From the IMG/VR virus record IMGVR_UViG_3300020457_000024, positions 1 through 39,780 of that record: a stretch of DNA of 39,780 nucleotides. One strand, given 5' to 3'. Positions 1,564 to 13,678 of the stretch are shown here, piece by piece. The position numbers and the translations under genes are program-made. The stretch's first letter is position 1. Each line of letters opens with the position of its first letter. This DNA is from a virus. Under the pieces are notes generated by a model. That model worked only from the letters and a program-made list of their open reading frames with translations, searched no databases and was not told where the DNA came from.

Positions 1564-4080
1564 ATGCCCCTATCTGGTGTCTTTGATAAGAAGAAACCTT
1601 CGTTAGCGAAGCGTGTCCTAAACTTCTATGAAGACGTTAGATATAATTATTTATCAGCAAGAGAAGACCCTAAAGGTTTTGCAAAGGATTGGCAAAAATC
1701 AATTAAAAGAATTAGAGAAGATTTTGATGGGCTAAATGATTTCTCAAGAGAAATGAAGAAGTATCTTGATGAAAAGATAGTTTTCCAAAAAGAAGTAATG
1801 AATCCAGAATCTCATCAGGCTAGAGATTTGTGGAAACAAATCAAAACTCTGCGCTTTAATTCTGATGAATTGAATGACCCGTTTGCTAAACAAATGGGGG
1901 ATAAAGTCATACAAAATTTAGTATCGAAGCCCTCTATATATGCTATATTCATACACTATGCCCTACGGTCACACGCGCATAGTATTGATGAAGAATCTTG
2001 GGAGAAAAATGGGCTTTCTCCCGATACCATCACAGAAGGTGCGGTGGGGCTAGACTTAGCATTGGATGACATTACTACATACATTATAGAACACTATGGT
2101 GATGACGTTGACACATCAAAGGTAAAACCAAAGTTTAGGCCAGCATTAGAATTATTAGAAAAGGTATATCTAGAGAGAAACACAGAAGAAAATTGGCAGA
2201 AACTAATTGCTATGGATTTAAAGAAAAGTGACGAAGAAAAAGCAGAAATAGATTTTATAGTTCCTAACAAACCAATGTATAGAATATTTGAAATAAATGA
2301 TATAAAAGAATTAAAAGGGTTTAGTGGAGAGTGGGTGGTTCAAGAGAAATACGATGGAATCAGAATACAAATACACAAGATGGATGAGAACATCAAAATC
2401 TATACCTATAATGAAAAAGACATAACAAAAAAATGTAAAGATGTTGTTGAAAGATTAAAGGCTAAACAATTTGGTGATTTAATATTAGATGCAGAGTTAA
2501 TTTTGTATGATAAAGATGAACCACTACATAGAGCAGATACTATCGCACATCTATTTAAGAATAAATATAAAGATGCTAAACTAAAGGCAAGAGTCTTTGA
2601 TATAATGCATCACGAAGATAAGAATATTGCTGATGACCCACTTAGAGAAAGAATAAACATTTTGTTCTATCAATTTTCTCAACAGTCATCAGATGAATTA
2701 AGTTTCCCAAATAAAAAGAATACTCGCATTGCTGATTCTTTGGCAGAGGTTAAAAAATATAGTGAAGATATTATGCAATCAAGAACCTCAGAAGGAGTTG
2801 TAATTAAAGATATAGAATCTACTTATTACATAGGTAATAAGAAAAACCCCAAGTGGATTAAATGGAAGAAGTTTGTTGATTTAGATGTTATTGTTTTGAA
2901 CAAAAAGAAAACTAAATCTAACTTGTATTCCTATACTGTTGGTGTTGGCCCGTTGAGTGGTGAAGAAACAAGAGAACATGGTGGTGAAGAAATAGATGGT
3001 AAAACATATCTACCTGTTGGTAAAGCATTAAACACTAAAGAAAATGTTGATGTAGGTGCAATCATTAGAGTAAAGGTAGATGAGGTAAAGCGTAAAGGAA
3101 CGGGCTATAGTTTATTCTCTGCTAAAGTTATTGAAATACCAGAAGTAGAAGCCCCAGAGAAATTAATCACATTAGAGTTATTAGCAAAGGATAGTAGAAA
3201 ATCACTAGCCTATGATGTTCAAGAAGCACTTGAGAAGTATATCATAACAGATGGTATTCATGGAGAAGCAGAAATAATACTAAAAGGTAATTATGAAGGA
3301 TTTACTATTTATGGTTTTGAAGGAGATGCATTAATGGAAAAGAATGCTCTAGCAGATATGGATTCTTGGAAAGACCAAATTACTGAAATAAATAAAACAA
3401 AATCTTCTGATGCTAGAAATGCAATTAAACAATTCTTAAAAGAAAAAGACCCTAATGAAGAAGGTGTACCAACAAAAGAAATTTTAGAATTTGTTAAGGA
3501 GCACCCAGACACAAAGGAAAACTCTATGGATTTATTTGACAATAGGGCTGAAACATTGAAAAATTGGATGAATGACCAAGATGAGTTTATACCTATGGCC
3601 GGTGAAAAATTTACATTTAATTCTAACCATATTTCTAAAAACACAGATGAAGAAGAAAGTAGAGTTGGAACCTTTAGGTTAATGACTACTGAAGACGATA
3701 ATATTACTTTAGTGTTTGAAGTCAATAAGACTAGACAGGCTTGGAATATTGACATTGAAGACACAGAAGATATATTCAATTTGTTTGGAAAGGCTGGTAA
3801 ATTTCCAGCAGAAATTGCTACTCGGATAAAGGGGAAGAAGTTACTAGATAAGGGGAAGATTGAACTAGGTGTTCAAAAGGACGGTTATCACGAATATAGA
3901 ATAGATGGAGACAAGTTTGACACTAGACTTCACTTTAGGGTTGTACCTGTCAATGAAGAAGATACATGGTTAGTTTGGACAGGATACAAGCAAGAGATGC
4001 TAGATATAAAAGAAGACAAGGGTAAGTGGGATTTATCTACGGATAGGTTTAAGAAATTAACCATGCAAATCCCCGAATAG
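1564..4080 (+). CDS. ATP-dependent DNA ligase with long C-terminal extension (838 aa)
   Basis: The enzyme seals nicks in duplex DNA by lysine adenylation, AMP transfer to the 5' phosphate, and phosphodiester formation. Visible nucleotidyltransferase motifs are motif I EKYDGIR (Lys262 as the adenylated residue), motif III DAEL (309-312), IIIa around residues 340-350 (ARVFDIM), motif IV EGVVIKD (410-416) and motif V KWIKWKK (430-436). An OB-fold-like region follows to about residue 545. Residues 1-250 fit the N-terminal DNA-binding domain of archaeal/eukaryotic ligases. Residues about 550-838 are extra compared with the usual length of about 560-600. The end of this extension (about 765-825: IELGV, YHEYRIDGDKF, RLHFRVVPV, TWLVWTG) vaguely recalls the LigD 3'-phosphoesterase layout, which is unproven. 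Its position between small head-region genes and the prohead protease is unusual for a replication or repair enzyme. Confidence 0.9.
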   Translation: MPLSGVFDKKKPSLAKRVLNFYEDVRYNYLSAREDPKGFAKDWQKSIKRIREDFDGLNDFSREMKKYLDEKIVFQKEVMNPESHQARDLWKQIKTLRFNSDELNDPFAKQMGDKVIQNLVSKPSIYAIFIHYALRSHAHSIDEESWEKNGLSPDTITEGAVGLDLALDDITTYIIEHYGDDVDTSKVKPKFRPALELLEKVYLERNTEENWQKLIAMDLKKSDEEKAEIDFIVPNKPMYRIFEINDIKELKGFSGEWVVQEKYDGIRIQIHKMDENIKIYTYNEKDITKKCKDVVERLKAKQFGDLILDAELILYDKDEPLHRADTIAHLFKNKYKDAKLKARVFDIMHHEDKNIADDPLRERINILFYQFSQQSSDELSFPNKKNTRIADSLAEVKKYSEDIMQSRTSEGVVIKDIESTYYIGNKKNPKWIKWKKFVDLDVIVLNKKKTKSNLYSYTVGVGPLSGEETREHGGEEIDGKTYLPVGKALNTKENVDVGAIIRVKVDEVKRKGTGYSLFSAKVIEIPEVEAPEKLITLELLAKDSRKSLAYDVQEALEKYIITDGIHGEAEIILKGNYEGFTIYGFEGDALMEKNALADMDSWKDQITEINKTKSSDARNAIKQFLKEKDPNEEGVPTKEILEFVKEHPDTKENSMDLFDNRAETLKNWMNDQDEFIPMAGEKFTFNSNHISKNTDEEESRVGTFRLMTTEDDNITLVFEVNKTRQAWNIDIEDTEDIFNLFGKAGKFPAEIATRIKGKKLLDKGKIELGVQKDGYHEYRIDGDKFDTRLHFRVVPVNEEDTWLVWTGYKQEMLDIKEDKGKWDLSTDRFKKLTMQIPE

Positions 4081-4116: not shown

Positions 4117-5364
4117 ATGCCGGAAGCGGTTTTACTGAAATCTGATACAGATGGAGCATTTAACATATTAAAATCTGATGAATTAGTTATTGGTGGGTAT
4201 GCATCTATAGAAGTAGTAGACAAACAAAATGATTTAATAACATTATCCGCATTAGAAGAATCAGTAAAGAAATACATGGGAGAAAAGAAATACAGAAATG
4301 TAATGTCAAACCATTCAAATGTTCAGGTCGGGGAGGTAATAGAACAATATAGAGACAAACATGGTACTTTACACAAAACCCATGTTGATGATGTCGGCTT
4401 TTATGTTGTTATTAAACTCCGAGATGATATAGAAAAGGCAAAAGAAATTTCAAGAGGTATTAGAAAAGGTACTCTCCGTTCATTTAGTATAGGTGGACAA
4501 GCATTATCAAAAAGAAAAAAGTCTAGTAATGAATTAGGCGACTATAATGAGATAGATAAGTTAGAACTCCATGAAGTAACGATTTGTGAGAAAGGAATAA
4601 ACCCAGAAGCAAAGTTTGATATTTTAAAGGAGGAACGTGATACAATGAGTGATAAGTTGGAAAAGACGTTGGAAGAAATTAATGCGCTGATGAAGCAAGT
4701 TAATGAACTCCAAAAAGAAGAAGACCCTGATGCGGAAGCAGCCAAAGCATCTTCAATGGGTACTTCATACGAAAGTATGGATACTGATGAGGAAAAGGAA
4801 GCAGGCGACTATAAGAAGCCTGACAATGAAATGGCAATGGCCGATATGGGTAGTGATGAAGACGAATCGGAGGTTAGTATGTCTAACTACGATTCGGAGG
4901 CAAAAGGAAGGACTGGGCCAGAAGGCTTTGTTGAGGGAGGATTAGCAGGCGAGGAATCAGCAGGCAAGAAACTACCCCAAGCACCGCAAGTAGGCCCATT
5001 GTATAAGGAGTGGAATAATGAGGAATTCGCTACTTTAGACCTTTCTACTGCTAATGTAGAAAAGGCGTATGATGCTTTCAAGGCAGAACAACTTGAAAAG
5101 ATGGCATACGACTCGTTGAAGGAGCAATTTGAGGCTCGCTTCAAGCATGAAACAGAAGTACGAAAGGCTGATGTTTTAAAGAACGAATATGACGCAAAGA
5201 ATGAGGTTGAGGCATTAAGAGAGGAGTTCGCTACTCTCCGAAAGAGCCTAGAAACCACGAATGATGAGATTGTTAAGTCTCAAACCATTTCAGTCCCAGA
5301 TATTGACGTATCTGAGATGTCTTGGGGAGAAATACACAATCTAGTTGCGGAGTATGAGAGGTGA
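4117..5364 (+). CDS. XkdF-like prohead protease fused to scaffolding domain (415 aa)
   Basis: Residues 1 to about 165 fit a phage prohead serine protease of the XkdF/U35 type. Candidate catalytic residues are His66 (in SNHSN) and a serine in RSFSIGG (Ser124, or Ser122), followed by the family-like ELHEVTI...INPEA segment at 150-165. From about 175 to the end it is acidic, helical and coiled-coil rich, as expected for a scaffold that fills the procapsid and is then degraded. The gene lies directly before the major capsid gene, the standard order. ATG 4117 is preceded by a GAGGAAGTGG purine stretch. An in-frame internal start at 4645 with a strong ribosome-binding site is listed separately. Confidence 0.85.
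   Translation: MPEAVLLKSDTDGAFNILKSDELVIGGYASIEVVDKQNDLITLSALEESVKKYMGEKKYRNVMSNHSNVQVGEVIEQYRDKHGTLHKTHVDDVGFYVVIKLRDDIEKAKEISRGIRKGTLRSFSIGGQALSKRKKSSNELGDYNEIDKLELHEVTICEKGINPEAKFDILKEERDTMSDKLEKTLEEINALMKQVNELQKEEDPDAEAAKASSMGTSYESMDTDEEKEAGDYKKPDNEMAMADMGSDEDESEVSMSNYDSEAKGRTGPEGFVEGGLAGEESAGKKLPQAPQVGPLYKEWNNEEFATLDLSTANVEKAYDAFKAEQLEKMAYDSLKEQFEARFKHETEVRKADVLKNEYDAKNEVEALREEFATLRKSLETTNDEIVKSQTISVPDIDVSEMSWGEIHNLVAEYER
4626..4647 (+). promoter_or_regulatory. Strong internal Shine-Dalgarno and ATG inside the protease gene
   Basis: AAAGGAGG lies 11 bases upstream of an in-frame ATG. It is among the best anti-Shine-Dalgarno matches in the window, stronger than the site of the full-length gene. 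It would set the start of the nested scaffold. Confidence 0.5.
4645..5364 (+). CDS. Nested in-frame scaffold product from internal start (239 aa)
   Basis: Inside the protease-scaffold gene, AAAGGAGG at 4626-4633 lies 11 bases before an in-frame ATG at 4645 (codon 177 of the long form). It falls exactly at the boundary between the protease domain and the coiled-coil scaffold. Translation from here would give a free scaffold protein, as in lambda, where Nu3 is nested in C. The sequence shows the site; that it is used is inferred. The codons in this stretch (Lys-Glu-Glu) can produce AAGGAGG by chance, so confidence is moderate. Confidence 0.5.
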   Translation: MSDKLEKTLEEINALMKQVNELQKEEDPDAEAAKASSMGTSYESMDTDEEKEAGDYKKPDNEMAMADMGSDEDESEVSMSNYDSEAKGRTGPEGFVEGGLAGEESAGKKLPQAPQVGPLYKEWNNEEFATLDLSTANVEKAYDAFKAEQLEKMAYDSLKEQFEARFKHETEVRKADVLKNEYDAKNEVEALREEFATLRKSLETTNDEIVKSQTISVPDIDVSEMSWGEIHNLVAEYER

Positions 5365-5369
5365 AATGA

Positions 5370-6746
5370 ATGGCAACAAATTATGTTAAAACCATGAAAG
5401 ATTTAGAGGCCGCAACCTACGGTGGTAGGGGCGGTATGGGCGGTAATAGCCTGTTAAAGAGCGCAGGTATCGTTGCTGGTTTACATACCGGACACGGCGG
5501 TACTGAAACCCCACAAGGAACAGTAGCCAGTTTTGGCAACCTATACAACGTTGTATATGGAAAGAAAGTTTGGTCAATGCTTAACCAAGAGGTTAACGCA
5601 CTGGCTATGCTCTCAAAGAGACCCTATACTTCTAGTGGGTGGAGAATAATGACTGCTAGGCCAGAAGGTGGTTCTGGAAGCCAATTTGCAACAATTAACT
5701 CAGGTGCAGGTACTGGAACAGGTGCTCAAGGTGGAAGCGCACCACGAATTGATAAGATTGGTGGTGTAACAGAGAATGCAAGGTTAATAACCGATATTCC
5801 TGCAATTGCACCCACTTACACCACTCTCTTTACAAGCCCGAAAACTGTTGCTCACATGTTTGAGTTCACAGAACTGGCTTTAGAGATGGCTAAGATTGAT
5901 GATGGCGTTGGTGATTTAAGAGCCTTAATCCGTGAGGATATGGGTAAGCATCACGCTGAAGCACAGAACAAGATGCTATTAATGCCTCTTGAGAACTATG
6001 ACCAGACTGACGGTTCTTCTGTAATAGATGTAACTGCAAACTATACTTCTTTGTTTAAGATAGTGGCTTCTTCAAAGGAGATTGAGGCTATGGAGGATGC
6101 AAGCATGATAGACACCGGAGCATCAACAAGCGGTGGAATCATTAACCAATTAGTTACACTGTTTGGAAACACAGACAGACAAATTGGTGCTGACAATGCG
6201 TTCAATGAATCCTTTATGGACGCAGAAGTAGACTATGGTGACAGTTATGGTTCAAACGATGCAAGGCCTTTAACCCTAACCATCCTTAACGCTATGTTAA
6301 GGCGAATAAGGGAAAATGGAGGAAGCCCCAAGGTTATCCTAACTGGGTATGATACTATCCAGCATCTAGGTGACCTATTACAGAGCCAAGAGAGGTTTAT
6401 GGATAGAAAGGAAATTATCCCCACTCATGGCGGCGTTAGGGGAGTAAAGGGTTCTGAGGTAGGATTCAGAGTAGCGACATACTACGACATACCCTTGATT
6501 CCATGCAAGGACATGCCTAAGACCGGACAAGGTTCTAACAAGTTAAGCGACATGCTTATTCTAGATACAGACCATCTCTGGTTATCGGTTATGAAGCCAA
6601 CTGAATACTTTGAGGACGGAATTGACAACGGAAACCCATTCGGTGTTGGAACCCTTGGAAACCAAGCAATGTATAGAACCATTGCTGAAACCGGGTGTTC
6701 TTTCTTCAAGGGACAAGGTAAGATAACTAACATAACGAGTGCATGA
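5370..6746 (+). CDS. Major capsid protein, HK97 fold (458 aa)
   Basis: This protein builds the icosahedral shell. The length, the position immediately after the protease-scaffold gene, and the sequence style fit HK97-fold capsid proteins of archaeal and bacterial tailed viruses. There is a Gly-rich N-terminal arm (about 15-60), a central alpha/beta region with a long helix (around 165-205) and a C-terminal strand-rich domain ending at 458. A GAGGTGA ribosome-binding site lies just upstream of ATG 5370. Base composition is clearly higher in GC than in neighbouring genes (one hand-counted 60-base line at 6421 has 32 G+C), as expected for a very highly expressed gene with selected codons. The assignment is by architecture, not by a database match. 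Confidence 0.85.
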   Translation: MATNYVKTMKDLEAATYGGRGGMGGNSLLKSAGIVAGLHTGHGGTETPQGTVASFGNLYNVVYGKKVWSMLNQEVNALAMLSKRPYTSSGWRIMTARPEGGSGSQFATINSGAGTGTGAQGGSAPRIDKIGGVTENARLITDIPAIAPTYTTLFTSPKTVAHMFEFTELALEMAKIDDGVGDLRALIREDMGKHHAEAQNKMLLMPLENYDQTDGSSVIDVTANYTSLFKIVASSKEIEAMEDASMIDTGASTSGGIINQLVTLFGNTDRQIGADNAFNESFMDAEVDYGDSYGSNDARPLTLTILNAMLRRIRENGGSPKVILTGYDTIQHLGDLLQSQERFMDRKEIIPTHGGVRGVKGSEVGFRVATYYDIPLIPCKDMPKTGQGSNKLSDMLILDTDHLWLSVMKPTEYFEDGIDNGNPFGVGTLGNQAMYRTIAETGCSFFKGQGKITNITSA

Positions 6747-7657: not shown

Positions 7658-8002
7658 ATGACTTTGGGTTCAGCAACAAGCAAAATGCACGTTTTTGGTT
7701 CGACAGATGGCACTATCAACAGTGTTGCAGGAAGACAGGCTAAACAACTATTAACTGGTAAGGCAAGAATTATGTCACTTAAAGTAAGCAATAATCAAAC
7801 AACAGCAATGACTGTTGATTTTATTGATGGTGCAGGTGCATCAGCCTTTAATGGAAAGTTAATTCAAAGAGTTAATGTTGGAGCAGTTAGAGAAAATCTA
7901 GACTTTGATATGCATGGGGCCATCGTAAATGATGGGTTATATGTTCTAGTTAGTGGGGCAGGAACTAAAGTTCAATTATCAGTTTCTGCTCAATATAACT
8001 AG
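7658..8002 (+). CDS. Small beta-rich putative virion protein (114 aa)
   Basis: It starts at an ATG preceded by an AGGAGGGGAG ribosome-binding stretch, one of the stronger sites in the window, which suggests high expression. The protein is Gly/Ala/Val-rich with alternating strands and no cysteines, membrane segments or catalytic motifs. Its size matches the decoration-type protein upstream, and it lies in the head block. I infer a minor capsid or decoration role; the family is not recognised. Confidence 0.55.
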   Translation: MTLGSATSKMHVFGSTDGTINSVAGRQAKQLLTGKARIMSLKVSNNQTTAMTVDFIDGAGASAFNGKLIQRVNVGAVRENLDFDMHGAIVNDGLYVLVSGAGTKVQLSVSAQYN

Positions 8003-8010
8003 GTGAAATA

Positions 8011-8412
8011 ATGCCAGCGTTAGAAAAAGATACAAAATTAGTAATGACTATACTGTTCGTTGGAGCAGTTAGTGGCGTAAACGTTTTCTTTTACGCAGAG
8101 TTTGGGAATCTCTTAGCATTTTCTCATTATGCACATGCAACTGTGTTTTCATTGATGACTATCGGTGGAATACTTGTAATGAAAGCAGTCTTTGACCTTG
8201 CTTTAAACGACTATATCGAAATGAGTTTATTAGATAGACGCATTTCAGCATACTGGACAAAAAGGGCGAGAGATGAACAGCAAAGAGAAAGGGTTAGGCA
8301 AAGTTTGCAACAGTATAACCAACAATGGGGATACACAGCACAACAACAGCCAACAGTGGCAGAAACGCCTAAAACAACAACACCATCTTTCTTAGCCGAA
8401 ATTGAACAGTAA
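8011..8412 (+). CDS. Small membrane protein with two predicted TM helices (133 aa)
   Basis: Hydrophobic segments at about residues 9-30 and 38-60 look like two transmembrane helices. They are followed by a charged region (about 80-105, many Arg/Glu) and a Gln/Thr-rich disordered C-terminal tail. An AGGTGAAATA ribosome-binding site lies before ATG 8011. It is the first gene of a run (membrane protein, membrane protein, small GTPase) inserted between head and connector genes. It could be an internal-membrane or host-envelope-targeted protein. No family is recognised. Confidence 0.6.
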   Translation: MPALEKDTKLVMTILFVGAVSGVNVFFYAEFGNLLAFSHYAHATVFSLMTIGGILVMKAVFDLALNDYIEMSLLDRRISAYWTKRARDEQQRERVRQSLQQYNQQWGYTAQQQPTVAETPKTTTPSFLAEIEQ

Positions 8413-8420
8413 GTGAAAAC

Positions 8421-8645
8421 ATGTTAGATGCTATAGCCTTTGGAATGGATGAAACCTCTTTGGCATATGATATGCAAAGAGCGCATTCCGCAGACGTTTG
8501 GTTCTTACGTGCTAGATTTTATTTTTGGGGAATTATAGGATGTATATCGAGTTTTGCATTAGGTCAAATATTGGCTATGATGGGTATCAATACTGTAACA
8601 ACAATGTGGGAGGGCTTTTGGGACTTTATTCATCATTTAGTATGA
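8421..8645 (+). CDS. Small single-TM membrane protein (74 aa)
   Basis: It has a polar N-terminal 25 residues, then one clear hydrophobic helix at about residues 29-50, then an amphipathic aromatic C-terminus (Trp/Phe/His). It starts 8 bases after the previous gene and ends just upstream of the GTPase gene, so the three are probably co-expressed. The family is unknown. A membrane partner or anchor for the GTPase is a reasonable but untested idea. Confidence 0.55.
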   Translation: MLDAIAFGMDETSLAYDMQRAHSADVWFLRARFYFWGIIGCISSFALGQILAMMGINTVTTMWEGFWDFIHHLV

Positions 8646-8655
8646 GGGATACATA

Positions 8656-9324
8656 ATGTCTGTAATGACGGGTTTTATAATTCTTGTTATTGAACAAGTA
8701 GGAATTTTATGGAAAAAGATAAATCCTCATGCTTTTGGAATATATGGTGCTACACAAGTAGGAAAAACAACATTACATCATCAATTAAGAACTAGAGGAG
8801 ATGTGCCAGAAATCAAACAACGAACAGTTGGAAGAGAAAGAGCATTAAGAAAAACAATTAAAATTGATGGAGATATTCATACAATTAAAACATCAGATAT
8901 TGGGGGAGAAAGTCTATATTGGGGTGAGTGGCTTCAAGATATGAAATCAAGAAAAGTAAAATATATTATATTTATGATAGACGATAGACATTTAGCAAAA
9001 CATATAGATATAGAACAACAATTATGTTGGAAGTTTTTAGTAGATTGTATTATTTCTTCTTATTGGGATATTGTTAACAAGAAAAATAAAAAGAAATCAA
9101 GTGAATATCCAATAGCAGTAGGAGTTTGGGCAAACAAATTTGACCTTTGGAAAGATAAATATCCTTATGATGATATAATGAATCACCCAATATTTGATAC
9201 GTTTCAAGATGGAATGCAAAGATTAAATGATAAAGGTATACCATGTCATAAATATATAGTAAGTGCAAAATCAGATTCAGAAATGGTATATAGAGGAATA
9301 ACAACAATGATAGAGGATTACTAA
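8656..9324 (+). CDS. Ras/Arf-like small GTPase with N-terminal hydrophobic segment (222 aa)
   Basis: All diagnostic GTP-binding motifs are visible. G1/P-loop is GATQVGKT (31-38), G3 is DIGG (81-84), G4 is NKFD (160-163) and G5 is SAK (203-205). A candidate G2 threonine lies in the 50s (RTVGRE). The catalytic Gln after DxxG is replaced by Glu85, so intrinsic hydrolysis may be altered. Residues 1-19 are hydrophobic/amphipathic and could anchor the protein to a membrane, which fits its two membrane-protein neighbours. The 3' half is very AT-rich (line 8941: 12 G+C in 60), unlike the capsid gene, which hints at separate acquisition. The superfamily call is firm; the role in a virus is unknown. 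Confidence 0.85.
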   Translation: MSVMTGFIILVIEQVGILWKKINPHAFGIYGATQVGKTTLHHQLRTRGDVPEIKQRTVGRERALRKTIKIDGDIHTIKTSDIGGESLYWGEWLQDMKSRKVKYIIFMIDDRHLAKHIDIEQQLCWKFLVDCIISSYWDIVNKKNKKKSSEYPIAVGVWANKFDLWKDKYPYDDIMNHPIFDTFQDGMQRLNDKGIPCHKYIVSAKSDSEMVYRGITTMIEDY

Positions 9325-9385: not shown

Positions 9386-10069
9386 ATGAGTATGCAATAC
9401 CAACCACCAAGTTTAATTGGCGCACAAAACGCTGCTGTAGGCAATGCGTTTTTACCACCAATAAAGTATGCAAGAGCAGCCGGGGCTGTAATGCAATATG
9501 AGTATAAAAGCACAAAACCGAAGAAGCAATTAAAAGAGTTAGTAACTATTTTATGGCCAGAAAAGAAATCTTTCTTAAAGATACCTTATGGGTTTAAATT
9601 TAATACTAGGGATAGATGTGTTGTTTGTGGAACACATAAGGTATGGGAGGCGGGTGACCCAATGAGGCCAACAATCCCACTTCACAAAGTAAAGAAAGGT
9701 TATCCAATGCGCGGTACTTATTGTGAAAAACATGCCGCTTTACATAAACAGTATGAAATGTTAGAGCAACAAATGATAGCAGAAGAACATGGCCTATCCT
9801 TTAGTGCATATATTCCTACGCCTAAAGTGCCTAAAATTTTAGAATCTGCACCGCTAACTTCATTAAGGCAATCCGATATTGAGAGTTTGGCCGCTACTGG
9901 TTGGACAATCAAACCTCCGCAAATGGCAGTAGAAACAGCAGAAGACGAATTGTTTAGATTAACAATGGAAAGCCATGCAATAAACAATAGAGTAATTAAA
10001 CTAATGACTGAGGGTACAGCAGTACCTGAAATAAAAGCGGAAGAAGAAGAAATAGAAGAGGTAGAATAA
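9386..10069 (+). CDS. Putative zinc-binding protein of the GTPase/membrane block (227 aa)
   Basis: A probable zinc site is formed by C78-x2-C81 and C113-x2-H116 (RCVVCGTH ... YCEKH). The region before it is basic and the C-terminal 30 residues are strongly acidic (Glu-rich). ATG 9386 has a GGAGGAG ribosome-binding site. The preceding 60 bases are extremely AT-rich (TTTATTATTATTTATTTAT), which could carry a promoter, but no clear BRE/TATA pair can be fixed. Neighbours are the small GTPase and a Gln-rich protein. The family is not recognised. Confidence 0.6.
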   Translation: MSMQYQPPSLIGAQNAAVGNAFLPPIKYARAAGAVMQYEYKSTKPKKQLKELVTILWPEKKSFLKIPYGFKFNTRDRCVVCGTHKVWEAGDPMRPTIPLHKVKKGYPMRGTYCEKHAALHKQYEMLEQQMIAEEHGLSFSAYIPTPKVPKILESAPLTSLRQSDIESLAATGWTIKPPQMAVETAEDELFRLTMESHAINNRVIKLMTEGTAVPEIKAEEEEIEEVE

Positions 10070-10070
10070 T

Positions 10071-10799
10071 ATGGGATTATTAGGAACAAGTAACTCAACT
10101 CTTGCTTCACAAATAGAAGCACAAGGAGCGGCTCAATTTAAGGCCACTAACAATTTATTAACATTACAAACTAACCACGTTGAAGAATTCTTTGAGTATC
10201 ATGGTGAAGGATTTTTAATGGCATTGGATAAGTTAGTAGAAGATTCTGTAGAAAGAGTAGTAGCAAAAATGCTAAGTTCTTTAAAATTAACACAAGGTAC
10301 TAGCGGAGAAATGGTAGTTCATCCAGATTGTACCGCTACATTTAGTGCAATAACAGATGCTAATATACAATTAGATGTGCAGGCTGTATTAGCATCAGCA
10401 GTTAATACAGAAGTGGTTGCTCAAAGAAAGATGGCTAAACAACAGTATTTAGAAACACAAGGGTATGCACAAACACAAATGCAACAAACAACACCACAGC
10501 CAACACAACAAACATATACACCACAAGGCGCAAATATGCCTAATGCTGGAGGATTAAACCCTTCACAAATTAGTGGTGGTAATCCAATGGTTCAGGCTAA
10601 TAATGTTGCAATGCAACAACAACAAGCATTTAACAATCCATCAGGGTTTCCTGTAACACCTGCTGGTTATGATACTATGGGGAATGCATATTGGATAGAC
10701 CCGGCAACAGGACAGCCAACATACTCACCGCCGGGTAGTGGTTTAGGTTTAGCAAATGTTATTTCCAAGACGGCTGCATGGGCGGCTTGGTTAGCATGA
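10071..10799 (+). CDS. Gln/Thr/Pro-rich protein of unknown function (242 aa)
   Basis: Residues 1 to about 125 are helical and moderately charged. Residues about 130-190 are a low-complexity Gln/Thr/Pro/Asn linker, and the C-terminus ends in an Ala/Trp/Leu hydrophobic helix that could insert in a membrane or pack against a partner. It starts one base after the stop of the zinc protein, following a GAAGAGGTAG ribosome-binding stretch. No recognisable family. The order (helical domain, flexible linker, hydrophobic tip) would suit a linker between a virion component and a membrane, but this is speculation. Confidence 0.55.
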   Translation: MGLLGTSNSTLASQIEAQGAAQFKATNNLLTLQTNHVEEFFEYHGEGFLMALDKLVEDSVERVVAKMLSSLKLTQGTSGEMVVHPDCTATFSAITDANIQLDVQAVLASAVNTEVVAQRKMAKQQYLETQGYAQTQMQQTTPQPTQQTYTPQGANMPNAGGLNPSQISGGNPMVQANNVAMQQQQAFNNPSGFPVTPAGYDTMGNAYWIDPATGQPTYSPPGSGLGLANVISKTAAWAAWLA

Positions 10800-10808
10800 G
10801 TGATTTAA

Positions 10809-12587
10809 ATGGATATTACTATACCTACTGGAATAAGGTATAATAGTAGAGATTACTCTCTAACTGAAGTCATAGAACTAGATAGTTCTATGAGAGGGGA
10901 TAGTCCTGAAAATCACCCACTTTTTAAGATGATGCTTAGGTATCTAGCATCACCTTTTAGTGACAATGATTATGATGCTATAGAGGATAATCTATTGCAC
11001 ATTTTAAACCCCGCATTTATGAGACAATTATCAGAGAGAGATTCTGATATTGTATTAGATGAAGACGAATATAGAGAACACATAAATTATGCTTGGAAAA
11101 AACTACAAGAATTAACAACAGAAGAATTACTTCGACATCTTTTAAATTATGTAGGAGATACAAAACAACTGAAAACAGTATTATCACAAGGGCTTTTGGA
11201 ACAAGGAAAGAAAACTAAGGTCGGAGAAATAAATACTGAGTTAGGAACAGACCATGTATTATCTGCACATACAAAAGGCATAGAGAGTAAAAAGATATTC
11301 CAAGCGGGCGATAAAAAGATACCATATAAACCTGCTTTAGAATTGATTAATGAAATGTTAGAAGACGAAGTTAATCAAGGCGAATACGTTGAAGTAGAAA
11401 TAACAACTAAAAGGGTTAGACTTAGTTTACCCAACGGTAATAAAAAGGTAGACTTTACAGAATCTGTTTATAGTATAGATATTAATTTCAAAAAATTGTT
11501 CGGAAAGTTATTTGAAAACGAAGGGATAGCACCTATCAAAAAGTCTTATCCTATAACAAAGGCAGTTAGGAAATACACTCCGCCTTCAGGGTATCCATTA
11601 AGTGATGTTGATAGAGCAATTCTAGAGGATATTAATTTAAAACAAGAGTGGAATGATTTACATGATTCTGGTGAATTTGAATATGATGATGAAGAGGATG
11701 GTAAATTATCTATTAGTGATGTTAAAGACGAAATGGAACAAGGCAGAATGTTAGAGGTAAGACAAGTTGCTACTAAATTAAAAGAAGCAGGTCTAATGTC
11801 CGAAAAGAAACTAGATGATATTTTAAGCGAAGGAAAGATTTTTGCTAAATTGCCATATGATGAACAAGATTTAGAAATGGTTTCTAAAGTTGTAAATTGG
11901 AAAAGAGATAATAACGTTTCATTAGATGAGTTTGAAACTATGATTATGGAAAGAAAAGCAGATAAACTAATAACTACAGCATCAAAAGAAAGTAAAAGAA
12001 GAGTTAAGCCTATTGTTCATGGCCCTCTTGGTAGCCCACATGCTGAAAAAAGATTCTTTATAGATGATAGTTGGGCTAATCCAGAAAACATTACTATTGA
12101 TTTAGAAAATGCTGCTAGGAATTCTAGAGCAATAAATGAGAGTTTGTATAAAGATGCTTTAGTGCCTGATAAGGTGGGTATTTTAAACATTGAATTAACA
12201 TCAGTTATAGCCGATGAAAATGTCTTAGCAGAAAGGCAGGCATTGTTAGAAGATGATGAAGAAGATGTAAGAGAGAACTCTAAATACCTATTAGACCATG
12301 TTTACAACGTTTTTTACTTAGATAGTGTATCGTATAAAATATTAGAAGAATATGAATTTAGAGATTGGACTGAAAGAAGCCCAGAATCTAGATACGGTGA
12401 CAAACAGAAAAAATTTAAATTTGAAAGATATAAGCGAGGACAGTCAAAAGATGAAAGTGGTAAAGTTAATCCATTACTAGGAAGAGTAGATGCTGGTGGA
12501 CAACCTACTAATGTAAGTGTTAAATCAAATACTATTCTTTATTATATCAAAAGACAGATGAGTAATTTACAAAGGGTGTTAGGATGA
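10809..12587 (+). CDS. Large unknown protein between GTPase block and connectors (592 aa)
   Basis: A soluble, acidic, mostly helical protein with no cysteine cluster, no membrane segment and no nucleotide-binding loop. Several Asp/Glu-rich linkers, for example around residues 293-300, separate what look like three or four domains. It overlaps the downstream connector gene by ATGA, so it is tied to the connector/tail operon. Portal proteins can have similar size and position, but I see no portal-like signature, and the order relative to the capsid gene would be atypical. Function unknown. Confidence 0.6.
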   Translation: MDITIPTGIRYNSRDYSLTEVIELDSSMRGDSPENHPLFKMMLRYLASPFSDNDYDAIEDNLLHILNPAFMRQLSERDSDIVLDEDEYREHINYAWKKLQELTTEELLRHLLNYVGDTKQLKTVLSQGLLEQGKKTKVGEINTELGTDHVLSAHTKGIESKKIFQAGDKKIPYKPALELINEMLEDEVNQGEYVEVEITTKRVRLSLPNGNKKVDFTESVYSIDINFKKLFGKLFENEGIAPIKKSYPITKAVRKYTPPSGYPLSDVDRAILEDINLKQEWNDLHDSGEFEYDDEEDGKLSISDVKDEMEQGRMLEVRQVATKLKEAGLMSEKKLDDILSEGKIFAKLPYDEQDLEMVSKVVNWKRDNNVSLDEFETMIMERKADKLITTASKESKRRVKPIVHGPLGSPHAEKRFFIDDSWANPENITIDLENAARNSRAINESLYKDALVPDKVGILNIELTSVIADENVLAERQALLEDDEEDVRENSKYLLDHVYNVFYLDSVSYKILEEYEFRDWTERSPESRYGDKQKKFKFERYKRGQSKDESGKVNPLLGRVDAGGQPTNVSVKSNTILYYIKRQMSNLQRVLG

Positions 12588-13678
12588 GTAAAATAAGTAA
12601 AAGTGACTATGTAGTGGGCCAACAACAAGACTATGGAAACGGTATAGGTTTCTATACTAGGCATCAAGATGTTTCTGAACTTCTGCAAATTGGAGGATTT
12701 AACGATAACACTACTCCTACTCACGGAGAAGTAGGAAGAATAATCAAGAGGGTTGAAGGTAAAATTGATGATAAATTAAAGGTATCATTTAGACCTGAAA
12801 TTATAGAAAAAGAAGTGCATGACTTTGACCCACATCAACAGGGGGCTTATCCTGTTTTACCATACAAAGATTATGTTGGGTTTATTCAATTAAATAGTGA
12901 AAAAATTAGAAAGATATTAAGATTAGAACTATGGCAAGGAGATACATATGTAGATGTTGCTTCTGCTTCTTGTATGTATACACCACCAGCAACCGCACAA
13001 ACAGGCACATATACTCTAAGATTTGATATTGGTTCACCTGTGACTGTTTCTTTTACTTTAACAGAAAATACTACTAATGGTTTCTATGACCAGTTTGGGC
13101 AGAAAACAACTGTCTTAGAGATTTGCGCCGCAATAAACGAAGTGTTCCCATCTAAAACTGCTGATTTTACTCAACAATTGACAGCAAAAACTACTACCGC
13201 ATCAACAGGAAACGGAAATATCTCCGATTTCTTTTATGCCTGTCCATCAGAAGACGGTAAATCTGTTTACATTTCTTCTAAGTTACCATCGGATGCAGGT
13301 ACAATTTGCAGTTTAGTAGAGACACTCGGTTCAACCGCTACTACTTTTTCTTTTAATGACAATGAAACAGGAGGAAGAACAGAAGATTTTTGGACAGTAA
13401 GCAGCGAAGGTAAGATATTTTTCCGTAATGAATATCCGTTTAACACCAAGCATTCAATCCGAGCAACCTATATTAGAGGTAGTAGCCGTGTTCCTGCTGC
13501 TATTCACGAAGCCGCTACAAAACTTGTTGCTGCTGAAATACTGGTAACAGATGACAATACTATTCTAATTGCAGAAACTGGTTCTAATATTGACATAACT
13601 AAGAAGCACGAAATACTCACAACGGAAGCAAATGCTATCCTTGATGGTAAAAGAAACCTAGTTCACCTAATAGACTGA
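12584..13678 (+). CDS. Putative head-tail connector/adaptor protein (364 aa)
   Basis: The N-terminal part (about 25-110: VSELLQIGGF, GEVGRIIKRVEGKIDDKL) and the C-terminal helices (about 300-360: IHEAATKLVAAEIL, ILTTEANAILDG) match the helical layout of gp6/gp15-like head-tail adaptors. These form a ring below the portal. A beta-rich insert of about 150 residues (about 125-275) separates the two halves, making it longer than typical adaptors (about 100-200 aa). It is followed by a small helical protein and a tail-completion-like protein, the usual connector order. The assignment is by pattern and context. Confidence 0.55.
   Translation: MSKISKSDYVVGQQQDYGNGIGFYTRHQDVSELLQIGGFNDNTTPTHGEVGRIIKRVEGKIDDKLKVSFRPEIIEKEVHDFDPHQQGAYPVLPYKDYVGFIQLNSEKIRKILRLELWQGDTYVDVASASCMYTPPATAQTGTYTLRFDIGSPVTVSFTLTENTTNGFYDQFGQKTTVLEICAAINEVFPSKTADFTQQLTAKTTTASTGNGNISDFFYACPSEDGKSVYISSKLPSDAGTICSLVETLGSTATTFSFNDNETGGRTEDFWTVSSEGKIFFRNEYPFNTKHSIRATYIRGSSRVPAAIHEAATKLVAAEILVTDDNTILIAETGSNIDITKKHEILTTEANAILDGKRNLVHLID

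Follow-up and report, generated by a model that had tools for sequence, protein, structure and literature searches.

A five-gene block with a predicted Ras-like small GTPase belongs to the core of one magrovirus clade

Our study reports on a block of five genes, centred on a predicted small GTPase, in a 39.8-kb virus record (the window, by which we mean the whole stretch of DNA analysed). The block encodes, in order, a two-TM protein (M1), a one-TM protein (M2), the GTPase, a Cys/His protein and a helical protein; it is a real inherited unit and a core feature of one magrovirus clade. We propose, with a probability of roughly 0.45, that it forms a GTP-switched module which acts late at the host membrane and would remodel or open it for virion maturation or exit. 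What is new is the module and its setting, while the fold itself is known. Elsewhere, Ras/Arf-like GTPases are known chiefly from cells and from giant viruses; by our analysis, small GTPases now include a core gene of prokaryotic tailed viruses. To the extent that this could be checked, the module has not been described before in these viruses; the part of the magrovirus literature that was covered makes no mention of it or of the GTPase, and an earlier annotation is possible.

The block and its setting in the window

Magroviruses are tailed viruses that infect marine group II archaea (PMC10768690, PMC10160649), and they have been reported to rank among the most abundant surface-ocean viruses (PMC10160649). 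Their archaeal hosts are uncultured. The window virus fits this group in its major capsid protein, DNA ligase, protease and tailed virion genes, in its kinship with HVTV-1 and HCTV, haloarchaeal tailed viruses to whose capsid proteins its own is related, and in the size of its relatives, which are contigs of up to 84-98 kb. The features that define membership of Magrovirales, namely a magrovirus-type capsid protein, a DNA ligase, tailed virion genes and a relation to Druskaviridae, were all found; the assignment to a named family is one that we infer. The match to an ATP-dependent DNA ligase domain is limited to about residues 249-435 of an 838-aa protein, whose gene adjoins that of the prohead protease on the upstream side, within the virion gene run.

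Three small genes separate the major capsid protein gene from M1. On the right, the block is followed by a slot that holds a 592-aa protein in the window and is strongly variable among relatives (22-98% identity or no match), and then by the 364-aa neck-region gene, a right-hand anchor common to the window's clade and to sister viruses that have no block; tail tube, tail assembly chaperone and tape measure genes lie further downstream on the + strand. The first-pass annotation had placed the GTPase between capsid and connector genes. Its position downstream of the protease and capsid genes and upstream of the neck-region gene agrees with the first half of this statement, while a connector at that place is plausible only.

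Table 1. Coordinates of the block and of neighbouring features in the window.
Feature	Position	Strand	Remarks
DNA ligase	1564-4080	+	domain match
Prohead protease	4117-5364	+	
Major capsid protein	5370-6746	+	flank, outside the block; SU10_MCP 6e-8, phrog_24667 7e-19
114-aa protein	7658-8002	+	final gene ahead of the block; weakly matched by a gene at this position in sister viruses without the block
M1	8011-8412	+	133 aa, two-TM hairpin; hydropathy peaks, alignment, 171/171 loci
M2	8421-8645	+	74 aa, single TM; hydropathy, alignment, 171/171 loci
Ras/Arf-class small GTPase (predicted)	8656-9324	+	222 aa; profiles, predicted model, G motifs
Cys/His protein	9386-10069	+	227 aa, CxxCG ... CxxH; 145/145 loci
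Fifth block gene	10071-10799	+	242 aa, soluble, probably helical; 145/145 loci
592-aa gene	10809-12587		right of the block
Neck-region protein, conserved	12584-13678	+	364 aa; phrog_17057; sister-clade matches ~1e-99 to 1e-104

Conservation of gene order was surveyed from 182 distinct GTPase genes, with all counts given over testable loci. M1 and M2, the two small membrane proteins that had been noticed directly upstream of the GTPase, occupy this position in 171/171 distinct loci, and the 227-aa and 242-aa genes follow the GTPase in all 145 that could be tested. The proposed membrane-anchored module of a GTPase and two membrane proteins is thus a real unit, and its GTPase is probably anchored, but it has five genes and not three. 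The GTPase is single-copy in 23/23 long records (84-98 kb) of the window's magrovirus clade, and IMG/VR contains at least 349 matching stretches that code for a relative. Hydropathy analysis places the hydrophobic segments of M1 at residues 10-28 and 43-61 and that of M2 at about 38-56; M1 ends in a charged, Gln-rich tail with a conserved F[LF] motif, and M2 has a conserved N-terminal part (Y..QRAHSAD..F..R). In 145/145 distinct loci the 227-aa protein has preserved its CxxCG ... CxxH motif, and it probably binds a metal (zinc).

The genes of the block are tightly packed, with median gaps of 10 bp (M1-M2), 5 bp (M2-GTPase), 27 bp (GTPase to the 227-aa gene) and 2 bp (227-aa to 242-aa gene), and only 8 bp separate M1 from the gene that precedes it. 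This spacing suggests that the block is probably read on one transcript with the capsid genes, and it would be expressed late, with the virion genes. Some members, for example L302, carry extra DNA between the GTPase and the 227-aa gene.

The GTPase gene has a G+C content of 29.0%, and its 3' half, noted in the first pass as AT-rich relative to the capsid gene, indeed stands at 27.2% vs 44.1%. The GTPase gene lies below the capsid gene in G+C in 148/148 distinct loci; low G+C is therefore a stable trait with no sign of recent import, and for this reason we rejected a recent acquisition read from AT-richness.

Motifs, predicted fold and relatives of the GTPase

The window GTPase carries all of the G motifs that the first-pass annotation had ascribed to it: G1 GATQVGKT(T), switch-I T57-V-G59, G3 D81-I-G-G-E85, G4 N160-K-F-D163 and G5 S203-A-K205, for which the family patterns are GAxxxGKT, T-V-G, DxGG, ANKxD and SAK. 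The key residues, including the guanine-specific NKxD, are invariant across 135 distinct homologues, position 85 excepted. Glu in place of Gln after DxxG had been singled out as unusual; it is present, but it is no anomaly, since 128/135 homologues have Glu at position 85 and seven have Gln, which makes Glu the family norm. In the second lineage described below, D or H are also found here, and because of this variation the rate of GTP hydrolysis cannot be predicted.

All 55 diverse members scanned match Pfam MMR_HSR1 and NCBIfam small_GTP (best ~1e-5, window copy 1e-3), and most also match SRbeta, Roc and Ras, and some Arf. The window copy does not reach the curated cut-offs (19.6 bits vs 21.9 for PF01926, 18.9 vs 42.5 for TIGR00231), which indicates a divergent member of the superfamily, a cut-off of this kind being a naming rule and no property of Ras-like proteins. 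A search of the PDB with the single sequence gave no match. An AlphaFold model built with 78 more diverse sequences (pLDDT 79.5, pTM 0.79) has an N-terminal helix at residues 3-22 followed by a G domain with the Ras-type order of strands and helices. Its top Foldseek matches are M-Ras, Rab3, Rab33 and Rab1 (E 4e-8 to 1e-7), the best being M-Ras (3kko; E 3.9e-8, TM 0.61 by target length). On the strength of these profiles and this model, the protein is assigned to the Ras-like small GTPase superfamily, and GTP binding and hydrolysis are predicted.

A degraded or unrelated P-loop protein, the outcome against which the first-pass annotation had weighed its own reading, is very improbable. Single-sequence matches are weak and below the Pfam and NCBIfam cut-offs, and a first, shallower model, built from 30 close sequences, was of low quality (pLDDT 58.7, no Foldseek match below 1e-3); against this stand the invariance of the motifs in the 135 sequences, the GTPase fold of the second model with its 1331 matching PDB chains below 1e-3, and a dN/dS of ~0.1-0.2 vs near relatives, which places the gene under purifying selection.

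The hydrophobic N-terminus reported in the first pass was found at residues 1-19, with a low helical moment, and the GTPase is probably membrane-anchored through it. Insertion in the manner of Arf is not indicated, because the helix is hydrophobic and not amphipathic; Ser2 is invariant in the family and there is no Gly2 for myristoylation. Arf family proteins have TxG in switch I and DxGG[Q/E] in G3, while SRbeta has a membrane segment ahead of its G domain. The viral GTPase resembles Arf in the former and SRbeta in the latter, and has the predicted fold and G1-G5 in common with the whole Arf/Arl/SRbeta/Ras branch (PF01926, PF09439, PF00071, PF00025; TIGR00231). It is unlike these families in its sub-cut-off scores, in Ser2 in place of Gly2 and in its fixed set of viral partners. 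The Arf profile PF00025 matches 8/55 members at E up to 0.1 (best 0.0011) and nothing within the window record; as neither this profile nor a Gly2 amphipathic helix places the protein there, membership of the Arf family was rejected.

The statement that Ras/Arf-like GTPases are rare in head-tailed viruses stood up to our searches. At the sensitivity used, PHROGs, INPHARED and the highest-ranking tailed-virus entries in BFVD yielded no such GTPase, and a search of annotated phages with the GTPase gave no real homologue. The top viral structural matches in BFVD are giant-virus Ras/Rab-type proteins only (Pithovirus LCPAC302, Klosneuvirus; best E 6e-8). These are likewise virus-encoded proteins with a Ras-like fold, but the giant viruses infect eukaryotes, their genes are named Rab or Ras, and no such syntenic module of theirs is seen in tailed viruses. 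Two GTPase-bearing viral contigs (L125, L126; NZMJ01000101, NZMJ01000024) are binned in a 'Maricaulis' MAG, evidently by contamination.

The possibility that the GTPase serves host takeover, mimicking a host membrane GTPase of vesiculation, division or trafficking and titrating or redirecting it, appears improbable to us. In its favour, the joint profile of both lineages, whose best solved matches are 8oun ('GTP-binding protein', E 7e-5) and Arl8/Arl10, leans towards Arf, and archaea do employ a small GTPase for vesicles (PMC10927574). On the other hand, a scan of 84,980 prokaryote genomes gave no close cellular relative at its sensitivity, the misbinned contigs being the only hits, four dedicated partners argue for a self-contained machine, and the gene sits in the virion gene run.

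A sister clade without the block and a second lineage

The first-pass annotation had suggested a search for the cassette in related viruses. It is intact in all tested loci of the window's clade, absent from a sister clade, and relocated in a second, deeper lineage. The sister clade was found by a capsid-anchored scan and is supported at 99/97 in a capsid tree with long branches near its root. It retains the protease, the capsid protein, a 115-aa gene, the 364-aa neck-region gene and the tail tube, and more weakly a counterpart of the 114-aa gene, while none of the five block genes is recognisable at loci with conserved flanks; the 592-aa slot holds a protein of 790-951 aa without detectable similarity. 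The GTPase was not found anywhere in an 88-kb sister-clade record searched with two profiles, and neither block nor GTPase was found in HVTV-1, HCTV-1 and a Methanofastidiosa virus. Since the sister clade has homologous capsid genes without the block, the block is not generally needed for the assembly or exit of such viruses.

Whole-record searches revealed a homologous GTPase (E ~1e-31) in the deeper lineage (lineage 2, the window's clade being lineage 1), about 20 kb upstream of the capsid gene. Here the block lies upstream of the terminase gene, as the first part of a + strand run in which terminase, portal, protease and capsid genes follow. Its order is conserved in 22/22 contigs of a dedicated scan and in the six loci read first, with a two-TM protein of ~143-165 aa, a one-TM protein of ~74 aa, a CxxC/CxxH protein of ~300-345 aa and a fifth protein of 197-224 aa, and there is an additional sixth protein, again with two TM segments. 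This sixth protein (~81 aa; L390:13287-13532) follows the block and is itself followed by a small protein (L390:13544-13771) that combines an EF-hand-like motif, DQDGDGDFD, with a Cys/His tail.

When profiles of the two lineages were compared, the GTPases matched at E 5.8e-34 (~30% identity), the Cys/His proteins at 1.9e-5 and the fifth proteins at 8.1e-6 (HHalign for the latter two), where the best mismatched pair reached 0.0043. Two of the four GTPase partners are thus recognisably homologous. The profile matches of M1 and M2 were the best in their rows and not significant (E 0.053 and 0.022), and these proteins agree solely in position, size and topology. The capsid proteins of the two lineages are 34% identical and the GTPases 29%, similar values that would be compatible with common descent plus relocation and loss, or with transfer. 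In the capsid tree the GTPase label is explained by a single change, with lineage 2 scored as negative on the locus around the capsid gene only; our first reading of this tree was a gain in the window's clade, but given the relocated block of lineage 2, an ancestor that already had the block and a loss from the sister clade, or a transfer, are just as possible.

The Cpn60/TCP1 profile scores lineage 2 chaperonins at 1e-133 to 1e-172, vs 1e-38 to 1e-48 for those of lineage 1 and the sister clade where present, a contrast that we read as thermosome vs GroEL type. Such a chaperonin split has been described among MGII virus clades (Nishimura et al., PMC5332604), and since ours matches it, lineage 2 is probably magrovirus group A; the window's clade would then be group B or near to it.

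A separate observation concerns a short N-terminal tag that is common to proteins encoded in runs and unrelated in other respects; in lineage 2 it reads MTAFDTAWxLLK, in the sister clade MSWxxILK (L390:51-6370, L400:96-3102, L266:15136-19028, L277:12827-14664). The tag is not seen in the window; it occurs in 10/65 ORFs of L390 and 6/57 of L266 and in none of the shuffled controls. It has the look of a signal that targets internal proteins, some perhaps injected, to the capsid. In two of the tagged L390 proteins the tag is followed by an HGT motif known from ADP-ribosyltransferases.

A proposed role at the host membrane

Our proposal is that the GTPase would sit on the cytosolic face of the host membrane, held by its N-terminal helix, and would bind M1 and M2 through their cytosolic parts. 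This complex would be switched by GTP binding and hydrolysis late in infection, with virion proteins made from the same operon, and the Cys/His protein may control the GTPase in the way that zinc proteins control Arf GTPases. The most likely outcome would be a host membrane that is locally remodelled or opened, leading to virion maturation or exit. The fold and motifs, three adjacent genes with membrane features, the gene spacing, the conservation, and the behaviour of the block as a unit in both lineages point in this direction and bring the proposal to somewhat short of even odds.

The same genes could instead form an assembly platform, an alternative that we consider possible but doubtful, in which the membrane pair and the GTPase recruit and license a capsid assembly step at the host membrane (portal or prohead nucleation, or head-neck joining, with GTP hydrolysis as the checkpoint) and do no damage to the membrane. 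In lineage 1 the block does have head and neck genes on its two sides, in lineage 2 it starts the packaging and head run, and it likely shares a transcript with the capsid gene; yet the sister clade has homologous protease, capsid, neck and tail-tube proteins without any of the five genes, and HVTV-1 and HCTV-1 are without the block. While both readings fit, membrane remodelling for exit is slightly favoured over a membrane-bound checkpoint of assembly. The reasons are that viruses of the sister clade, which have no block, make homologous particles and that a recognised egress gene is missing from most archaeal viruses (PMC4456609). Egress is unexplained for most of them (PMC4456609), the profile of a related family names no lysis gene (PMC10768690), and the viruses studied here have no recognised gene for the membrane opening or exit step that the block would serve. 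A conserved Ras/Arf-like GTPase with dedicated membrane partners is therefore a concrete candidate for magrovirus exit or host manipulation. In its strongest form, the exit reading would make the block a GTP-driven five-gene machine, carried and relocated as one unit by head-tailed viruses, that remodels the membrane of a marine archaeon to release or assemble virions, an exit unlike holin-endolysin or pyramid lysis; this form is speculative, and we would sooner expect it to fail than to hold.

The nearest functional precedent, by analogy, is ArvA/ArvC, an archaeal small GTPase and the zinc-ribbon protein that shares its operon, which act in vesicle formation and membrane budding (PMC10927574). 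The viral block resembles the ArvA-ArvB-ArvC system in joining a small GTPase to a protein of zinc-ribbon type in one operon and in its proposed membrane-directed role, and differs in M1, M2 and the fifth protein, which have no counterpart there; the comparison is one of partner genes. The neighbours of the GTPase gave no Pfam match to ArvB (DUF2073) or ArvC (DUF2072) in either lineage and include instead a Cys/His protein without a family match, so the block was not assigned to the ArvA system. The find also bears on where membrane-acting small GTPases have circulated among archaea. Phage holin/spanin lysis cassettes are likewise runs of small membrane proteins expressed late, but the viral block has a central GTPase, no endolysin seen adjacent and no family match to them. 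A defence-system reading was also rejected, as PADLOC gave no credible match.

The location of the block within the virion genes would also suit packaged proteins with a role in entry, placed for instance where the tail or neck contacts a membrane. We regard such a virion component as quite improbable: three of the five proteins have TM or strongly hydrophobic segments, which is unusual for a membrane-less tailed virion.
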